A stretch of 6,893 nt of DNA, taken from Treponema sp. (GTDB lineage Bacteria > Spirochaetota > Spirochaetia > Treponematales > Breznakiellaceae). Every line of letters starts with the position of its first letter. Position 1 is the first letter of the stretch. Shown here piece after piece: positions 1 to 6,893 of the stretch. The notes under the pieces were generated by a model. The model ran no database searches. It was not told where the DNA came from and saw nothing but the letters and a program-made list of their open reading frames with translations. The position numbers and the translations under genes were made by a program. Where the stretch lies: NCBI GenBank assembly GCA_031283505.1, contig JAITBO010000027.1:1-6893 (forward strand). The letters are read 5' to 3'.

Positions 1-1797
1 GACGCCTGCCAGGGATGGAAGAACCCCAAGCTGGAACAGCTTGCCGCCAACGCCCGTGAAATCTATCAAACCACCAAGGCCGGGCAGGTGGTGTTTTGCG
101 ACCGGGTATTTTCAAGCGATGCTTCCTTTGCTATGCACCGGAAGATAAAAAAATCTCTGGTGGAAGCGGGCTTTAAGGAGAGTGAAATTGTCATTGTCAA
201 CGGGTTTACCAAATCGGGCGGGGCGCAGAGCGACAGCCAGATCGAGAAGGAAGTATCCCAGGCGGTGGAGAAATTCAACAATGGGACTTATAAAGTCCTC
301 ATCGGCTCCACCGCCTGTATCGGCGAAGGGCTTAACCTCCAGGAGAACTCCGCCGCCCTCCACCACTTCGACATCCCCTTCCGGCCCTCGGACTTTATCC
401 AGCGCAACGGGCGGATCGACCGCCAGGGGAATAACCAGAACGCCGTGGATCTCCATACCTATATGTCCGCGGGAACCATAGACAATTATTCGGTTTCCCT
501 GGTCCAGCGGAAAGCAAACTGGATTGACCAGTTATTGAAAACAAAGTCCCATGTGTTCGTAAATCCTAATGACGAGAACTTTGTCGATGCCGATGAGTTG
601 CTCCTGGCCCTTACCGAGGAATGGGGAGACGCGAGCCAGGCGGCGGCGCGGCGGGAGGCGGTGAACCGTCAGAAAGCGGAGAAGATGGCCGGGGCGCAGG
701 ACGCCCAGCGGAAAGAATTACTTGCCCAGCTTTCCCTCCTCCGCTTTTCCCTCAAATCCTTCGATGGGGACAAAGGTTCTCCGCGGTACCAGAACCGGGT
801 CAAAAAAATCAACATTGTGGAAAAGGCGCTTCTCAATAATCCCGGCATTACCGAACAGCAAAAAACGATTGCCAGGAAAGATACGCCGTTCCTGTATTCA
901 CAAGACCTAGACCAGATAGTCCTCAAGGGCGACCTCTTTTTCAGCTACGGCACGCCCTATGAAATTGTCGCTCTTAATTTCAAGAAACGGGAGTTTACCG
1001 GGAAGCCACTCCGGGAAGAAAGGCATAATAGTTACTCCCCCTACAGCCAGAAGCAGAACCTGAACGAGGAAATGTCCGTAGTGAAGATGAAATCGGCGAA
1101 TAATTTTGCCTATTACCCGCAGCCTTCTCGGGAAGACAAGAAACGGATTTTGAGCATTGACACAAAAGATTTTTACCGGATTGAAGATGATTCATTCAAA
1201 GAAAAGTATTATGAACGCCACCTCAAGACTTGCCGTAGTAATCCTGACTTTACCCCTGTCTATTTCTTTATCTACCAAGACAATGGGAAATTACTCATAC
1301 AGGATCATGCGCCCTATACCGCCGATGACCATTCGATACAAGCGATCAATCCCTTTAATGAGGTTGACCGGGAAAAGCTAAAAACGGCTCTCCGCGCGGG
1401 TATTGAGTTTGAAAACAAATACCGCCAGGAGTCCCAGCTTGAAACCATCGGCGAGACGATGCCTGAAATAGGGAAGCTCATAGAAAAAGCGATGGCCGGC
1501 CCAGGGCAGGAAGTGGCGGAGGGAAGCGCCCTCCTGAAAGAGAATACCCCGGAAAACTTCAGGGAAAACCTTATCGAGATGGGAAGGCGGCCCCGCTACC
1601 GAAACGATGTGATGGCGGCCGCCCAGCACCTTATCCGGACGGCGGAACCTTCCGACAGGGAACGCCTGAAAGAAAAGCTCCTCTCCCTGGGCTGCACCAG
1701 TCCGGATTCCACCAGGAATATCCTCGCCGCGTGGATTCAGGAACGGCCCGGCATCCCCCAACGCATGACTCCGCCTGATCCGGGCTTGGGGAGGTAG
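1..1797 (+). CDS. SNF2-like superfamily 2 helicase, C-terminal part (5' end outside window)
   Basis: The frame is open from base 1 to TAG at 1795-1797 (598 residues visible); the start and the ATP-binding half lie upstream. Visible motifs are those of the second helicase lobe: motif V (GSTACIGEGLNLQ, residues 102-114) and motif VI (Q134, R135, G137, R138, R141, Q142, G143 in QRNGRIDRQG), with the arginine-finger pattern of SNF2 ATPases. A Glu/Lys/Arg/Ala-rich, probably coiled-coil stretch follows at about residues 205-260. Residues 260-510 are unrecognised. Residues 515-581 are the C-terminal module shared with the next three genes, then a tail ending GLGR. Family knowledge: such helicases in phages and conjugative elements are often very large and carry an N-6 adenine methylase upstream; that part cannot be seen here. 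Likely role: ATP-driven action on DNA in element defence or anti-restriction (inference). The next gene begins 5 bases downstream. Confidence 0.85.
   Translation, partial: DACQGWKNPKLEQLAANAREIYQTTKAGQVVFCDRVFSSDASFAMHRKIKKSLVEAGFKESEIVIVNGFTKSGGAQSDSQIEKEVSQAVEKFNNGTYKVLIGSTACIGEGLNLQENSAALHHFDIPFRPSDFIQRNGRIDRQGNNQNAVDLHTYMSAGTIDNYSVSLVQRKANWIDQLLKTKSHVFVNPNDENFVDADELLLALTEEWGDASQAAARREAVNRQKAEKMAGAQDAQRKELLAQLSLLRFSLKSFDGDKGSPRYQNRVKKINIVEKALLNNPGITEQQKTIARKDTPFLYSQDLDQIVLKGDLFFSYGTPYEIVALNFKKREFTGKPLREERHNSYSPYSQKQNLNEEMSVVKMKSANNFAYYPQPSREDKKRILSIDTKDFYRIEDDSFKEKYYERHLKTCRSNPDFTPVYFFIYQDNGKLLIQDHAPYTADDHSIQAINPFNEVDREKLKTALRAGIEFENKYRQESQLETIGETMPEIGKLIEKAMAGPGQEVAEGSALLKENTPENFRENLIEMGRRPRYRNDVMAAAQHLIRTAEPSDRERLKEKLLSLGCTSPDSTRNILAAWIQERPGIPQRMTPPDPGLGR
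1543..1743 (+). repeat. Shared C-terminal module, copy 1 (helicase)
   Basis: Residues 515-581 of the visible helicase, beginning NTPENF and ending AAWIQE. By eye it aligns without gaps to the module in gene 2 (24 of 67 identical) and gene 3 (19 of 67). Probable helices are separated by the invariant Gly at module position 50. A 17-residue tail follows, ending DPGLGR at the stop codon. This copy best matches the consensus pattern AAQxLIR, then RExL, then LxxxG, then LxxWIxE. Confidence 0.8.
1788..1794 (+). promoter_or_regulatory. Ribosome binding site of gene 2
   Basis: GGGGAGG ends 8 bases before the ATG at 1803. It lies inside the last codons of the helicase gene, so translation of gene 2 is probably coupled to it. 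The site supports the 1803 start. Confidence 0.75.
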
Positions 1798-1802
1798 GGG
1801 AT

Positions 1803-3515
1803 ATGGCGGAATTAAAACAGTTTGATCTTGATTTTTCAGGCGATTTTCTTGATACAACAACCCCCGCTAAACCCGTCCCTAAAGAGTTAATCCCGGATAA
1901 AAAGCGCGAACCGGTTATTGAAGAAATGAAAAACAAAACGGAGAGCTATGACTTTGAACCGGTTACCAACGGCGTCGTTACCGATTATTCCGCGTTCCCC
2001 GCCAACCGTATCTATATTGCCAATGAAAAGACCATCCTCAAAAGCGGCGCCCCTCCCTGGATACCGCCTTTCGATCAGGACTTTATGCGCGGTAACGCCT
2101 ATATGCCCCCGGTTCTCAAAGACAAAGATACCTATCTCATGGCCGCTTCGCATAATTTCAAAAAGATGTACCGGCTGTCCATAGACGGGCTGGCCGCCAC
2201 CATTGATTATTACACCAAATACCAAAAAGCCCTGAATAATGAGGAAGCGAAAAATACCCTCGCCAGGCGGTTAGAGGAGGCCAAAGAATGGCTGGGTAAT
2301 CCCGAGAACGACACCGGGGGGAACTCATTTCTCAAGCGGTTTCATGAAAGCGTCATCAGGGGAGAACTCAAAGTAAAATCAAAACCGGTAAGGCTGCTTT
2401 CCCCGAACCGTATGACCCATTCCCAGATGAAACTCTTTTCCGATAACGGCCTGAAAAAACAGGACGCCTGGAACGCCTACCGGACTATCAAAGAAGAAGT
2501 CCGGCAGAAGATGCTGGATATGTCCTGCCAGATTGAAGACCTGCAATCATCCTATACCAAGGGAACCGAAACTTCCTACGGCGATACAAACACCAACAAC
2601 TCCCTGAAAGAAAAATACGGCGTCCTGGTGAAACGGCAGAATGGGAACGCCATAAACCGGGAAGAAATTAAGGACATCGCCTCCGCGCTGGATAAGATAG
2701 GCGGGGTATTCGGGGACTTAAAGAAAATATCCGAAGACTACGGCTTAAAAATCAGCCATGCCGGGGGAAAGCATATGTTCGCCCGGAGATTTACGGGTCT
2801 ATTCTTTGATGTCCACAAGGCTATCGGGGTGAGTTTCGGTAATAAGGATACTGATTTCCTGATTCTGGCCCATGAATACGCCCACTTTCTTGACGCCCAG
2901 GCGGGAAAAGGCTTAAATCATTTTTTCGCTTCCGATAAGCCGCTTACCGCCGAGAGCGCCATTGCCAGGGAATTCCGGTCGGTCATGAACAAGCGGGAAA
3001 CGAGAACTATAGAAAGCAAGTACCTTAACCGTACCTGTGAATGTTTCGCCCGCGCCATGGAACAATACACCGCCTATAAGGTCTCCCCGGAGCAGTTCAA
3101 ACAATATTGCGGGAAAGAAGCCTACGCGGGAGACGGGGTTTTCAAGGAGAAAATAGCGCCCCTGGTCGAAACCTTACTGGTGGAACGGCACGATCTTTGG
3201 CATTGCGTCCCCCCGGATACCGGCATGGCAAAACTAAAGGAATTCGGCATTTCCCCGGAAGACAATACCGGTCCGCGGTTCAAAAATAATTTCCTCTTGG
3301 TATGCCGTAACGCTGAATATAAAGAGAAACCCATGGAAGCGGCGCAGCTTCTGATTAAAAATGTTTTGCCGCAACACAAAGATACGCTTAATGGCTATTT
3401 ATTGCAACACGGATTTTCTAACCCGGAAGCAACCAGCAATAAACTATGTCAATGGATTTCGGAAACCAACCATGAGAAAAAGATGGAAAAGGAGGACCCG
3501 TCTATAGAGCGGTAA
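1803..3515 (+). CDS. Zincin-like metallopeptidase, polyvalent-protein (LPD1-like) type, with shared C-terminal module
   Basis: 570 residues, ATG at 1803 with a good ribosome binding site, TAA at 3513-3515. The zinc motif is L-A-H357-E358-Y-A-H361-F-L-D: H357 and H361 should bind zinc and E358 should be the catalytic base. E413 in CECFARAMEQY, 52 residues later, fits the third ligand; the E-x-F-A-R-A pattern is typical of LPD1 and related zincin domains of phage and conjugative-element polyvalent proteins (recalled, not searched). A beta-rich lead-in (GLFFDVHKAIGVSF) precedes HExxH, as in that family. The first 320 residues are unrecognised. There is no signal peptide or membrane segment, so it is cytoplasmic or delivered. 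The N-terminus MAELKQFDLDF resembles that of gene 5. Residues 488-554 are the shared module, and the tail ends DPSIER. Its substrate is unknown; cleavage of host or co-delivered proteins is inference. Confidence 0.83.
   Translation: MAELKQFDLDFSGDFLDTTTPAKPVPKELIPDKKREPVIEEMKNKTESYDFEPVTNGVVTDYSAFPANRIYIANEKTILKSGAPPWIPPFDQDFMRGNAYMPPVLKDKDTYLMAASHNFKKMYRLSIDGLAATIDYYTKYQKALNNEEAKNTLARRLEEAKEWLGNPENDTGGNSFLKRFHESVIRGELKVKSKPVRLLSPNRMTHSQMKLFSDNGLKKQDAWNAYRTIKEEVRQKMLDMSCQIEDLQSSYTKGTETSYGDTNTNNSLKEKYGVLVKRQNGNAINREEIKDIASALDKIGGVFGDLKKISEDYGLKISHAGGKHMFARRFTGLFFDVHKAIGVSFGNKDTDFLILAHEYAHFLDAQAGKGLNHFFASDKPLTAESAIAREFRSVMNKRETRTIESKYLNRTCECFARAMEQYTAYKVSPEQFKQYCGKEAYAGDGVFKEKIAPLVETLLVERHDLWHCVPPDTGMAKLKEFGISPEDNTGPRFKNNFLLVCRNAEYKEKPMEAAQLLIKNVLPQHKDTLNGYLLQHGFSNPEATSNKLCQWISETNHEKKMEKEDPSIER
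3264..3464 (+). repeat. Shared C-terminal module, copy 2 (metallopeptidase)
   Basis: Residues 488-554, from NTGPRF to CQWISE. Ungapped against copy 1 with 24 of 67 identities, including NT, F6, N9, AAQ, LI, LL, G50, P54, L61, WI and E67; 18 of 67 against copy 3. It lies immediately after the protease domain, and a 16-residue charged tail follows, ending in SIER. The codons differ from copy 1, so this is an old divergence rather than a recent duplication. Confidence 0.8.
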
Positions 3516-3520
3516 GGAGG
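3514..3520 (+). promoter_or_regulatory. Ribosome binding site of gene 3
   Basis: AAGGAGG overlaps the TAA of gene 2 and ends 8 bases before the ATG at 3529. It is close to the ideal Shine-Dalgarno sequence and the strongest in the window, which suggests that the solenoid protein is made in quantity. Confidence 0.8.
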
Positions 3521-3528
3521 ATAGAAAC

Positions 3529-4713
3529 ATGAAGGAATATATCGTTTCGACACAGGATGAATATGACAGTATCAAAGATGAAATAACCGCCCGGATTATA
3601 ATTCGAAATACCGACGGCTTAATCGAAGTAGGAGGAAAGGCGCTGATTATTGCCGCACAAGACAGCCACGTTAAAGCAAAAGAAAATACAATTATAGAAG
3701 CGTTTGAGAACGCAGAAGTGTCCCTGTATGATTCAGCCGAAGCCACAATCCAGGATACCGTGTGGTTACACGCTTTTGACCATTCCAGGGCGTACTGTTA
3801 CGGAGATTCAGAGGTGTATGCGCATAATCATTCGCTAATTCATGCGTTTGCAAACACGGGTGTACAGAGTTTTGATAAGGCAAGCATAAAAGCCCATCAT
3901 AATAGCCATGTTACCGCCTACGGGAATAGTTGCGTGTTGGCAAGCGATCACGCTATTGCTGTCTCTTATGAAGAAGCAACCGTCCGATCCGCTGGTCATG
4001 CTTTGGTCCACGCTTTTGGGAAAAGCAAAGTCGATGCCAAAGGCTATTCACAAGTTATAGCCCGCAACGAAAGTCATGTACACTCAGGAGATTTTGTCCG
4101 GGTTCAATCTTTTGATTCAAGCTATGTAGAAGCAATGAATGACGCTACTGTTTTCGCAAATGACAAGTCTCACGTTGACGCTAGAATGAAGGTGAAGATT
4201 ATCGCGTGGGATGCGGCTACTATTGACGCGGTTGATAATGCTCAAATTTCCGCCGTGGGTAAAACAACGGTAGAAGTTTTTGATTCAGTCCGTGTTGAAG
4301 CGAAGGGACAGAGCATGGTCTACGCGCATGATGAAACCACGATAATTGCAGGAGACAACTCATCTGTTCGTGCCTTTGGGCATCCTGCGGTAACAAGCGG
4401 GCCGGGGGTATCCGTTGCCCGGTTTCCCGCCACACGGATTCCTTTGCCCAATGAGCTAAATACAGCGGAGCATTTTGAGAAAAATTATATCGCCCTGGCT
4501 AACACCGCCGAATTCCGGCATAACCCCATCCATGCCGGAAGGCTGCTCATAAGAAACGCCGGACACGGAAACCGGGAAAAAATCCTGCTCATGCTCCATC
4601 AAAAAGGCTGCCATAACAGCCGGGAAATTAAGGACTATCTTATGAAACTCTTTGCGGAACACCGAAAACCAAAAAGGGAGACCCCTTCCAATGATTACTC
4701 CGTTGAACGGTAA
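3529..4713 (+). CDS. Octapeptide-repeat beta-solenoid protein with shared C-terminal module
   Basis: 394 residues, ATG at 3529, TAA at 4711-4713. Residues 1-37 look like a cap or lead-in. Residues 38-293 form 32 consecutive octads with no insertion or deletion, consensus [S/A/T]-x-[V/I]-x-A-[aromatic/x]-[G/D]-[N/H/K]. Small residues, alternating hydrophobics and Asp/Gly turns are the signature of a stacked beta-solenoid. Residues 311-377 are the shared C-terminal module and the tail ends YSVER. There are no catalytic motifs, signal peptide or membrane segments. Similar octad-repeat proteins occur, from memory, in phage and gut-bacterial genomes as hypothetical proteins; I know of no assigned function. 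The repeat resembles ice-nucleation octapeptides only in general design, lacking their regular AGYGST units. Possible roles are a structural rod, a scaffold or a binding surface (inference). The repeat body is visibly poorer in GC than its own C-terminal part. Confidence 0.85.
   Translation: MKEYIVSTQDEYDSIKDEITARIIIRNTDGLIEVGGKALIIAAQDSHVKAKENTIIEAFENAEVSLYDSAEATIQDTVWLHAFDHSRAYCYGDSEVYAHNHSLIHAFANTGVQSFDKASIKAHHNSHVTAYGNSCVLASDHAIAVSYEEATVRSAGHALVHAFGKSKVDAKGYSQVIARNESHVHSGDFVRVQSFDSSYVEAMNDATVFANDKSHVDARMKVKIIAWDAATIDAVDNAQISAVGKTTVEVFDSVRVEAKGQSMVYAHDETTIIAGDNSSVRAFGHPAVTSGPGVSVARFPATRIPLPNELNTAEHFEKNYIALANTAEFRHNPIHAGRLLIRNAGHGNREKILLMLHQKGCHNSREIKDYLMKLFAEHRKPKRETPSNDYSVER
3640..4407 (+). 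repeat. 32 tandem octapeptide-coding repeats
   Basis: Residues 38-293 of gene 3 divide exactly into 8-residue units such as SHVKAKEN, SHVTAYGN, SKVDAKGY, SYVEAMND and SSVRAFGH. Position 1 is small, position 3 is Val/Ile in most units, position 5 is mostly Ala and position 7 is mostly Gly/Asp. The units are not copies at DNA level. In the last twelve, V-[RK]-[VI] starts units 20, 24 and 28, hinting at a 32-residue super-period; early units show aromatics at position 6 roughly every third unit. Confidence 0.88.
4459..4659 (+). repeat. Shared C-terminal module, copy 3 (solenoid protein)
   Basis: Residues 311-377, from NTAEHF to KLFAE. Ungapped against copies 1 and 2 (19 and 18 of 67 identical). 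It keeps NT, F6, N9, LI, G50, L61 and E67, but has Leu-Phe where copies 1 and 2 have Trp-Ile. A 17-residue basic tail ends YSVER. A short linker (residues 294-310) joins it to the last octad. Confidence 0.78.
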
Positions 4714-4715
4714 AA

Positions 4716-4720
4716 AAGGA
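4716..4720 (+). promoter_or_regulatory. Ribosome binding site that decides the TTG start of gene 4
   Basis: AAGGA, just after the TAA of gene 3, ends 7 bases before TTG at 4728. The first in-frame ATG lies about 30 codons further in and has no comparable site, so TTG is preferred. Start strength should be lower than for gene 3. Confidence 0.65.
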
Positions 4721-4727
4721 AACGCCA

Positions 4728-5498
4728 TTGAAAGAAGCACAGGAAGAAAAATACTATGCCAGTCTCAATGCTATTATAAATCAGTATAACCGGAATCATT
4801 TTAACCATGCGGTTATGCCAGATGAACAATACGCCTCCTCCCTGGCGGAGTTTATCATGGTTTCCTATCCCCGGCTTACCCAAAATCTTTTGAACGGTTC
4901 AGTTTACACAGTCCCGAAAACACCCTTTTCCGAACGCATTATCCCGGCCATTATCAACGCCGCCAATAAAGGCACAGTAGTATCGGTCAGGGACGTTCAG
5001 GGGAAACTAAAAATATACGCCAATGCCGGAAAGGACAGGAAAGGAACTAAAAAGCGAATCCTCGTCCTTGACGGGCATGAGAAGGATATAGCGAAAAATA
5101 ACCACCGGCAGCTATTGGCCTACCATATCCTGAAAGACGACATCCACTATGTATTCCACAATGAAAAATATTCCCGGACAAGACCTATTTTGCCTGCTTC
5201 TCCCGCGCAACGGCAGAACAGGAATACTGTAACACCGAAAGGGAAATTTGAGAAGCAGTTTAAGTCCCTGATACGGGAGCAGGGCGCGGGTTCTTCCCCA
5301 GCCGTTACCGCCCAATACATCTTTACCACCATGGCCTATAGCGATAAAAGGAAGCTTAATGTTTCCCTCAAGGCAATGGGGGTGAAGACCAGTACCGATA
5401 TGGATAAGCTCCTGCAACGTTGGAAATCCGAAGCCTTGCGGGACAGCCCCCTTCCCAGCCACACCCATGCAAGGGAATCAGTGGGATATAGCCGATAA
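4728..5498 (+). CDS. Unrecognised basic protein with shared C-terminal module
   Basis: 256 residues from a TTG start; TAA at 5496-5498. I do not recognise the family. Residues 1-60 look helical and rich in Asn, Tyr and Gln. Residues 70-145 appear to be an alpha/beta region containing VVSVRDVQGKLKIYANAG and RILVLDGHEKD, followed by HNEKYSRTRP and a Pro/Gln/Arg linker. There is no catalytic motif, signal peptide or membrane segment that I can defend. Residues 168-235 are the most divergent copy of the shared module, and the tail ends VGYSR. The gene lies 14 bases after gene 3 and its stop codon overlaps the ATG of gene 5 (TAATG), so it is co-expressed with both. Many Lys and Arg residues would fit nucleic-acid contact, but this is a guess. 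Confidence 0.8.
   Translation: MKEAQEEKYYASLNAIINQYNRNHFNHAVMPDEQYASSLAEFIMVSYPRLTQNLLNGSVYTVPKTPFSERIIPAIINAANKGTVVSVRDVQGKLKIYANAGKDRKGTKKRILVLDGHEKDIAKNNHRQLLAYHILKDDIHYVFHNEKYSRTRPILPASPAQRQNRNTVTPKGKFEKQFKSLIREQGAGSSPAVTAQYIFTTMAYSDKRKLNVSLKAMGVKTSTDMDKLLQRWKSEALRDSPLPSHTHARESVGYSR
5229..5432 (+). repeat. Shared C-terminal module, copy 4 (unknown protein)
   Basis: Residues 168-235, from VTPKGKF to RWKSE; 68 residues because of one extra residue before F. Apart from that insertion it stays in register to the end. It has 15 of 67 identities with copy 1, 16 with copy 2 and 9 with copy 3, and keeps all six invariant positions (T2, F6, L46, G50, L61, E67) plus AQ and the Trp. On its own it would be weak; position at the C-terminus and operon context raise confidence. 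Confidence 0.65.
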
Positions 5499-6893
5499 TG
5501 GCGCAGCTTGAATTTGACTTTGCGGAGTTTATCAACAGGCCCAGGGAGAACCCTGACTTTGTGCAGCCTTTTCCCTGGCCCGCCGCCCTCCGACCGGAAG
5601 CGGTGTACCGGAAAGCCATCAACACGCCCAAGTCCGCCAATCTCTATTCCATTGTAGGCAGCAGGATAGAACTCAACAAAGAACGGTACCCGACCAGGCG
5701 GGGATGGAAAACCCTGAACAATCTCCTGGGCGTCTACCGGGACAAACGGTTTGAAACCGTGCGGTATCTCTTGGTGGACAAATGGGGGATAATCCGCGAT
5801 CACACGGCCATCACCAGTTATGCCACCAATCTCTGTAAAATCGTGCCTGATGATTTTTCGGGGAAAGACTTTGTTGACCAGGTGAAGAAACAAGCGGTAT
5901 ATAATTCATGCAAAATAATCCTTATCCATAACCACCCTTCAGGGAGAACTGATCCAAGCAATGAGGATATTGAGATAACCAAGTCTTTTGAAATGATGTT
6001 TGGAGGACTGTTCGCGGGACACGTTATTCTTGATCATGGAAAATTCGGCCTCTGTCTCCCCGGCGAAACTTTTGAAACTATTTCCCTTCCGGCAAAAAAT
6101 GATGATCCCCTGGTTAAACCTGACAACAAAGCATATTTTGGCATAAACCTTGCCGACAGTACCGATGATAAGTTTTCAATCCTGAAAAACGCCTTACAGG
6201 TTGACGGTATCCATTCCTGGAACGATACCGATTGGGTGCCGGTTGTCTTTGCCAACGGCGCGGGCGTTACCCAGGCCCTGCATTATTACGGAACCGCTGA
6301 ATTCACCAGGGAAAACGCCGCTAAACATATCATGGACAAAACCATCATGATAAGCCGCCAGTGCGGGGCGATCTGGGCGTTCCCTATTACCGATAACCGG
6401 GAATTGCTTGAACCAATCTCCCGGATTACACGGGAAACAAACATTTTCAGGGATTTCTATGTTAATGGAACAACAGGGCATTCGATGAAATTGGGAGGAT
6501 CGCTTACCCCGCATCTTCCGGTTGATACCAATTACGCCTCGACCTTTCCGGTTTATCCGGCTGTTTCCCCGCCACAACAGGAACGGCAGGTGGCGGGGGA
6601 AATATTGGCTGATGGAGCGGGAAAAGAACAAAAGGAGAAGACTATGGAAAAACCAATACCGGAAGGCAGAGAACTTAACCGGGAACAGCACATGGCCCTG
6701 GTTGAATTTCTGGATCAGTGTTCTACTAAAATGAATGACAGTTTTATGCGGGACTATACGCGAGACATAACCGGTATCAGAGAATTTAATTTCTTGAAGG
6801 ATTACATTCCTCCTATTGAAAATAATTCCTGGGATGTATACCGGGAGAAACTTCAGGAAGCCCATAGGCGGGAACTCCATTCCTATACGGAAC
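5498..6893 (+). CDS. RadC-like JAB/MPN metalloprotein with long C-terminal extension (3' end outside window)
   Basis: ATG at 5498 overlaps the stop of gene 4 (TAATG); the frame stays open for 465 codons to the window edge. The JAMM zinc motif is complete: E86 (in RFETVRYLLVD), H144-N-H146-P-S-G and S154-x-x-D157, in the order and spacing of RadC-family JAB domains, ending near LFAGHVILDH. The N-terminal helix-hairpin-helix region of chromosomal RadC is absent; residues 1-80 are different and start MAQLEFDF, like gene 2. Residues about 200-360 form a second, unrecognised domain (VPVVFANGAGVTQALHYYGTAEF from V247). A Pro/Gln/Glu/Lys linker at about 355-382 is followed by M383, which has its own ribosome binding site. 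RadC-like domains recur in phage and conjugative-element polyvalent proteins; the biochemical role is unsettled (hydrolase or peptidase). Only a weak GGGA precedes the start, so coupled re-initiation is likely. Whether it carries the shared C-terminal module cannot be seen. Confidence 0.85.
   Translation, partial: MAQLEFDFAEFINRPRENPDFVQPFPWPAALRPEAVYRKAINTPKSANLYSIVGSRIELNKERYPTRRGWKTLNNLLGVYRDKRFETVRYLLVDKWGIIRDHTAITSYATNLCKIVPDDFSGKDFVDQVKKQAVYNSCKIILIHNHPSGRTDPSNEDIEITKSFEMMFGGLFAGHVILDHGKFGLCLPGETFETISLPAKNDDPLVKPDNKAYFGINLADSTDDKFSILKNALQVDGIHSWNDTDWVPVVFANGAGVTQALHYYGTAEFTRENAAKHIMDKTIMISRQCGAIWAFPITDNRELLEPISRITRETNIFRDFYVNGTTGHSMKLGGSLTPHLPVDTNYASTFPVYPAVSPPQQERQVAGEILADGAGKEQKEKTMEKPIPEGRELNREQHMALVEFLDQCSTKMNDSFMRDYTRDITGIREFNFLKDYIPPIENNSWDVYREKLQEAHRRELHSYTE
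6631..6646 (+). promoter_or_regulatory. Candidate internal ribosome binding site and in-frame ATG in gene 5
   Basis: AAAGGAG at 6631-6637, a 6-base spacer, then ATG at 6644-6646 in the reading frame of gene 5 (residue 383). It follows a low-complexity linker and precedes what looks like a separate domain (MEKPIPEGRELNREQ onward). The Lys-Glu-Lys codons could produce the pattern by chance. Confidence 0.4.

Follow-up and report, generated by a model that had tools for sequence, protein, structure and literature searches.

Substrates of VirB/VirD4 type IV secretion systems (T4SSs) are recognized either by a charged or hydrophobic C-terminus or through a domain combined with a basic tail, BID being one example (PMC6509941, PMC5675462, PMC11288057). 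BID-bearing substrates include relaxases, as well as Fic, PezT, and zeta toxins (PMC6509941, PMC5675462). The F-plasmid T4SS delivers SSB and other maintenance proteins to recipients (PMC8406263), and protein effectors either escort DNA or pass through a T4SS alone (PMC5512222). Short T4SS signals have been termed notoriously difficult to predict (PMC5675462). In the present study, a stretch of 6,893 nucleotides from a Treponema sp. assembly (GenBank GCA_031283505.1, contig JAITBO010000027.1, positions 1 to 6,893 of the forward strand; the whole stretch is referred to as the window) was analyzed, in which four adjacent and unrelated proteins share a C-terminal module and a short terminal tail. 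Spirochaete mobile-element proteins that carry this module, these terminal residues, or both are probably labeled with an address that leads them into a DNA-transfer channel and on to the next cell.

On the best reading, this arrangement would work like the Bartonella BID domain and its tail, any kinship with BID being conjectural. In alpha-proteobacterial relaxases, conjugation-linked toxins, and Bartonella Beps, as apparently here, a helical bundle and a short tail form a bipartite C-terminal address. BID is found on relaxases and on Fic, PezT, and zeta toxins and beside virB/virD4 genes, and some tBID classes co-evolve with the coupling protein (PMC6509941, PMC5675462); here, the tail alone is present on some relaxases and toxins. 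BID spans approximately 100 aa and folds into a four-helix bundle with a hook, whereas the present module spans 67 aa and matched no PDB fold at E ≤ 0.001; BID and XVIPCD structures were absent among the fold matches listed, a result with which relatedness is still compatible. Unlike in BID systems, it is the tail and not the domain that is general; the tail is element-specific, is borne by many of the proteins that an anti-restriction operon encodes, and occurs in spirochaetes. XVIPCD, which binds VirD4 and is a common C-terminal domain across different T4SS effectors of Xanthomonadales, is comparable in that respect, but it is approximately 120 aa long, has a glutamine-rich end, and serves a chromosomal bacteria-killing system, whereas conjugative elements and establishment proteins are involved here (PMC6536674). 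Short C-terminal T4SS signals similarly contain a basic stretch, yet they are varied and hard to predict, in contrast to the readable, element-specific motif that is common to unrelated proteins in this case (PMC11288057, PMC5675462). Polyvalent proteins (Iyer et al. 2017) draw on an overlapping domain pool (ArdC-N, zincin MPTase) and have been proposed to be co-transferred with DNA; the accessible text names no common terminal address for them (PMC5512222), whereas in the present elements a shared end occurs on separate genes and on 3000-aa fusions alike. A C-terminal T4SS address is of a known kind, whereas the domain, the element-specific tail, and the spread of that tail across a whole operon appear to be new. 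A literature search, outside of which most subscription journals lay, found in titles and abstract openings no shared terminal motif or such module named for spirochaete conjugative elements.

The four proteins are encoded on the forward strand (gene calls throughout are mechanical picks of open reading frames, ORFs). They comprise the C-terminal 598 residues of a DarB-like methylase-helicase whose start lies beyond the window edge (1..1797; Helicase_C, E 1.5e-8), a 570-aa zincin-like metallopeptidase protein with the motif HEYAH (1803..3515; phrog_22901, E 1.4e-51), a 394-aa beta-solenoid-like protein (3529..4713; phrog_15773, E 6e-16, Beta_helix merely at E 0.22), and a 256-aa protein of unknown function that starts with TTG and has homologs in rumen Treponema elements (4728..5498). 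In the same order, they contain the module at 1543..1743 (67 aa), 3264..3464, 4459..4659, and 5229..5432, the last copy with a one-residue insertion. The original prediction of four module copies in four adjacent unrelated proteins was confirmed, and the module is predicted to be a four-helix domain: the AlphaFold2 model of copy 2 has four helices at pLDDT 86.4. In the model of the 256-aa protein (pLDDT 70.9 overall), 10-residue blocks across copy 4 reached 77-88, and residues 241-256, at the tail end, fell below 50. That the module corresponds to no named domain also holds, since nothing significant was found in Pfam, PHROGs, NCBIfam, PDB sequences (alignment A4), or Foldseek; no Pfam or NCBIfam family passed the cut-off, the presence of a BID model in those libraries not having been checked.

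A second common feature is the end hydrophobic-[E/G/S]-Arg-COOH, with Arg as the last residue of each of the four proteins (MAFFT alignment): DPGLGR in the methylase-helicase (1777..1794; a match to the regular expression [ILVMFYWQ][EGSTDK]R, hereafter the regex motif), DPSIER in the zincin (3495..3512), DYSVER in the beta-solenoid-like protein (4693..4710; motif match), and SVGYSR in the 256-aa protein (5478..5495). The first description of the locus was right to treat the module as a common feature but missed this tail, which is the more general of the two and is kept where the module is not. In the 570-aa zincin class (n = 10), R is last in 10/10 and position -3 is I or M in 10/10. The class of the 256-aa protein (P0004 relatives, n = 19) has R last in 19/19, Y (16), H (2), or I (1) at -3, and G at -4 in 18/19, with positions -5, -11, and -13 being variable. 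P0041, a 496-aa zincin relative that lacks the module, agrees in its final residues with relatives that bear one; the module is also missing from P0044 and P0045, which end in SRER and SMER. The SSB of G001, a Treponema metagenome-assembled genome (MAG) and the closest genome to the window, and its homolog in the rumen Treponema G006 had no module match, yet they end in DMGR and GMGR. Module and tail are, to judge by their sequences, separable.

Across nine elements, 45 of 89 operon proteins end in R, compared with 34 of 404 other ORFs (Fisher p 2e-18); the operon bounds behind this count, the likeness test, and the module and charge counts were set after the tails were known. In G005, 15/16 operon proteins end in R and 14/16 match the regex motif (ends include YEVER, DTIER, EGYER, PEIGR, and YEIER), vs. 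1/31 other ORFs ending in R. Ends elsewhere include SMSD, SISD, SISD, SISM, EMGM, and YDIF (G069), EIGM, EAGM, YDIF, and SMEM (G239), GVKR, GLKR, SFKR, and SIKR (G460), and SYGY, GMEY, GFSY, and GWSY (G188). The regex motif fits poorly in G003 (1/14), G006 (3/14), G012 (1/9), G069 (1/12), and G239 (0/8) because the tails there differ. Residues at -2, -3, -4, and -6 are enriched as well, beyond the terminal Arg. The tail is preceded by a basic stretch: residues -30 to -7 have a net charge of +1.3 in 167 operon proteins (termed cargo here, after their proposed role) vs. +0.2 in 1101 others (Mann-Whitney U test, p 7e-11), and the last six residues of cargo have a net charge of -0.43.

Within most elements, the tails are more alike than those of random sets from the same contigs. 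None of 5000 random sets reached the observed likeness in G003, G239, G005, and G460, and 8, 25, and 31 of 5000 did so in G069, G006, and G249, respectively. In a comparison of 101 proteins, 16 of which were from G005, the last six residues of non-homologous proteins were more alike within elements than between lineages, with a difference of 1.74 score units (null 0 ± 0.44; 0/5000 label shuffles). The mean tail score was -0.57 for homologs across lineages (216 pairs) vs. +0.13 for unrelated proteins within an element (490 pairs). Three proteins of G265C74 (L198-L201) have the identical end HNKEHERG; all are related to PBECR1 nucleases, and recent duplication may explain their likeness.

The VirB4 of G003 was used as a query to collect further loci, and this kind of T4SS was detected at 48 places in 42/274 genomes. 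Nine of the 48 were discovery elements or genomes read earlier, and 16 of the remaining 39 were taken by size of contig, two of them being further loci in discovery genomes (G003C20 and G249C2). Removal of the near-duplicates G022C30 and G249C2 left 14 non-redundant loci; G012C2, G006C102, and G005C17, further contigs of discovery elements, were also left out. In these held-out loci, 30/65 cargo homologs end in R vs. 49/624 other ORFs, and the regex motif occurs in 29/65 cargo homologs, 13/624 others, and 2/107 T4SS parts (Fisher cargo vs. other, p 2.5e-23); the regex was written after the held-out listing had been inspected, while the ends-in-R criterion had been used earlier. Nine of the 13 motif-bearing other ORFs look like additional cargo, namely one Fic, one zeta-toxin, and one AbiEii protein, a small protein resembling DUF4177 by eye, a 448-aa operon neighbor, three related proteins encoded zero to one gene from the relaxase, and a 203-aa protein near the G188 relaxase. 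In G249, a tailed PBECR1 nuclease is encoded between VirB11 and VirD4. Tailed relaxases occur in G118 and G172 (2 of 12 relaxases), and also in G249C2, a near-duplicate of G118. A family of approximately 200 aa, ending in VSLEQER, VALDFER, and VALEMER, is encoded zero to one gene from the relaxase in G003C20:47635-48228 (L194), G020C10:188454-189035 (L181), and G101C1:1403814-1404434 (L187), and it is maybe a relaxosome accessory that supplies the address in cases in which the relaxase has none.

The module is narrower in distribution. In the contigs read, it was detected (independent E-value, iE, < 0.01) in 39/167 cargo-operon proteins, 0/200 T4SS or relaxase proteins, and 3/1101 others, the last being large proteins, of which two are distantly cargo-like and one is a cargo polyprotein truncated beside a repeated 412-aa ORF; this count left out G464C2, which has a weak module-like match (iE 2.3e-4) and showed no T4SS, and G370C167, in which the gene with the module match is cut. 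All five matches in G001, one of them partial, lie within the tagged operon. In the rumen Treponema G003 and G006, the clear copies are confined to a 7.6-kb stretch of a 3.4-Mb genome and a 9.3-kb stretch of a 3.7-Mb genome, respectively, with weaker copies in the genes adjoining them. A HipA-like protein of the G003 element has a weak match (iE 0.067) ahead of its -PDRLRD end. In the family of G003, 10/274 genomes had a match at E ≤ 0.01; in that of G001, 27/195 had one, of which four were clear (G001, G280, G369, and G370). The 23 weak matches (E 2e-4 to 0.01) are mostly partial and unexplained, save that of G460, a tailed cargo protein adjoining the T4SS. These weak matches (L098-L120, e.g., G464C2:135095-136045; also G080C50:112024-114030) mostly cover model positions 22-62, many in proteins of 300-400 aa, and no T4SS was seen in the 10 kb read around that of G464. 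At L087-L088 (G068C1:763379-769009), a polyvalent zincin gene stops inside the module, in a decaying element; it adjoins a 412-aa ORF, probably a transposase, whose ends are identical to those of two other 412-aa ORFs.

The relatives of the window genes are Treponema mobile-element genes, and a relaxase, a coupling protein, and VirB genes are linked to the operon in these relatives. In G003, the contig with the tagged operon also encodes a relaxase and the T4SS proteins VirD4, VirB11, VirB4, VirB6, VirB9, and VirB10; T4SS genes and a relaxase are similarly placed in G069, G239, G249, and G109, and are cut short in G460, while G005C2 contains VirB9 and VirB10. The module carriers G369, G370, and G280, found in the search of the G001 family, have VirB4, on the module contig in the first two. 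Plasmids contained no relative of P0002 or of the rumen homolog of P0004, viral contigs scanned with P0002 and P0003 alone contained none, and phages contained none of P0004. P0001 matched 2031 plasmid records, and the 10 listed align over the helicase part only. Two giant proteins (~1850-2500 aa) follow VirB10 in G003 (G003C28:68311-75795, L049; 75808-81675, L050), G069, G239, and G005, and are possibly surface or mating-contact proteins. In G012, the gene that matches a 348-aa protein of G003 is broken into two ORFs (L076, G012C4:173092-173617), and the T4SS is on another contig. Small proteins in or near T4SS clusters have ends that vary by element, namely DYGYSR (G003C28:89472-89720, L050, with a sub-threshold DUF4177 match), DFGIPF (G069C14:157375-157605), and NSVSR (G249C1:1871288-1871545).

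Downstream of the four proteins lies a RadC/JAB-domain protein (5498..6892, forward strand; RadC, E 4.3e-9) whose C-terminus is outside the window; its relatives end in YDGPER (G003 and G012), DYGFDR (G005), and YVGLSM (G006). In G001 (locus L001), the genes follow the order of the window and are divided between two contigs: an ArdC-like gene, two unknowns, SSB, a methylase-helicase, and a zincin, and then a zincin end, solenoid, unknown, and RadC-like gene, the last assigned because its start and position match. The window zincin is most closely related to 570-aa proteins, of which the named ones come from Treponema sp. MAGs, while a Termitinemataceae MAG contains a more distant relative; names of this kind suggest that the window may originate from a termite gut. 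A PHROG search of the window methylase-helicase gave DNA methyltransferase and DarB-like matches, and the full-length relative (L001) is 1781 aa long with N6_Mtase and Helicase_C. The contrast initially drawn between separate tagged genes and polyvalent chains is true of the window but fails in the relatives, in which several effector domains per chain occur in this 1781-aa protein and in the 3081- and 3873-aa chains of G003 and G006 that include the zincin and again end in module and tail.

A C-terminal T4SS address agrees with the tagged set, with its location next to the T4SS in relatives, with its rarity in other places, and with a form that is specific to each element, and the tail is found on known or expected kinds of substrate, such as relaxases (G118 and G172), SSB, and Fic, zeta, AbiEii, and PBECR1 proteins. 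The explanation that we consider fairly probable as a whole is that of conjugative-element cargo with a two-part C-terminal address read by VirD4. The operon would belong to a conjugative element of gut Treponema, and its proteins (methylase-helicase, zincin, RadC, SSB, and an ArdC-like protein, with toxins in relatives) would be cargo needed in the recipient alongside the DNA. They would be recruited to the coupling protein VirD4 through a flexible Lys/Arg-rich linker and an end motif of 4-6 residues, approximately [D/E]-x-[G/S/E]-hydrophobic-[E/G/S]-R-COOH, with an element-specific exact form. On a subset, the four-helix module of ~67 aa, mostly right before the linker, would probably add affinity or order.

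Several observations weigh against this explanation. G001 had no VirB4, coupling-protein, or TrbI match, its genome being fragmented and the operon on small contigs, so the T4SS link of the window rests on relatives. Tail likeness was not significant in two of the nine elements, G012 (2741/5000) and G109 (2192/5000). The median tail score was -1.0 both for homologs across lineages and for unrelated proteins within an element; with equal medians and differing means, the tail would thus be tied to the element and to the protein to roughly equal degrees. A prediction set beforehand, that P0003 and P0004 relatives carry the same tail class as the 660-aa zincins (-GIAS/-GMAF), was borne out in 0/6 and 0/34, and elements with that class may lack P0003 and P0004 genes. 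Terminal R is absent from 35/65 held-out cargo homologs, and the tail from 18/21 relaxases (near-duplicate counted). Moreover, the module usually lies just ahead of the C-terminus but is internal in P0043, G280, and G369, in the last of which it adjoins VirB4. The original prediction of an address therefore stands in part: recruitment to a conjugation channel is supported by the relaxase and VirB/VirD4 T4SS of relatives, while an invariably C-terminal module is not.

Among other explanations, the one that survives best, although we regard it as unlikely, is that the tags dock proteins on one partner in the donor or the new recipient, such as a scaffold on the element's single-stranded DNA, and build a complex without secretion. 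Tags common to SSB, helicase, RadC, and methylase proteins would suit such a DNA-processing complex, as would the element-specific tails; however, tailed Fic, zeta, AbiEii, and PBECR1 proteins and 2/12 relaxases lack an obvious place in it, and loci with related zincins outside these elements mostly lack like tails. Less probable again is that the module is a small helical domain of an ordinary type, binding DNA or protein, that has spread by duplication, and that the tail is a separate feature, for example a stability signal. The internal modules and the module-free P0041 are in line with this, but the near confinement of the module to cargo is not, and a stability signal would not be expected to vary between elements and yet stay alike within each.

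Packaging into a phage particle, another destination initially proposed, is very improbable. Zincin-domain relatives do occur in phages, and the control set consisted of 22 loci that encode a related zincin and are either of phage origin or unplaced (18 viral contigs and four genome contigs). These loci had weak module matches only; 19/283 same-strand ORFs end in R, 5/314 ORFs have the R-type motif, and the tails were more alike than random draws in 1/22 loci (L012, 0/1000, in which two ORFs end in IEQFNL), the next best being L026 (62/1000). Virion packaging is therefore unlikely and was rejected, and the tagged operons adjoin T4SS genes instead. In L002, L013, L015, and L022, the second half of the module matches weakly (iE 0.05-3) at residues ~230-290 of ~430-520-aa proteins, by chance or as a distant relative. 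Finally, the shared ends might have arisen because ribosome-binding sites overlap gene ends in a densely packed operon, and some ends do resemble a Shine-Dalgarno site (GGGAGGTAG at 1789-1797). This is hardly credible and was rejected as the main cause, since all six Arg codons are used in the 84 R-ending genes (AGA 38, CGA 16, AGG 12, CGG 8, CGT 5, and CGC 5; CGG or CGA in 3/4 window genes), 38/84 have no same-strand start within 60 nt, and the inner tail positions are enriched too.

The address explanation can be extended, tentatively and with less confidence than the explanation itself, to a private C-terminal postcode of 4-6 residues for each element, with a four-helix amplifier on some cargo, that is read by the element's own VirD4, so that all bearers, toxins included, would be shipped with the DNA. 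If true, this would amount to an orthogonal cargo code, and T4SS cargo would be readable straight from sequence. Since many unrelated cargo proteins of one element share a readable end, candidate cargo can be listed from the sequence of a conjugative element and then tested. The finding would support the idea that anti-restriction and polyvalent proteins travel with DNA, would offer matched tag-receptor pairs, and would extend toxin transfer in conjugation to spirochaetes.

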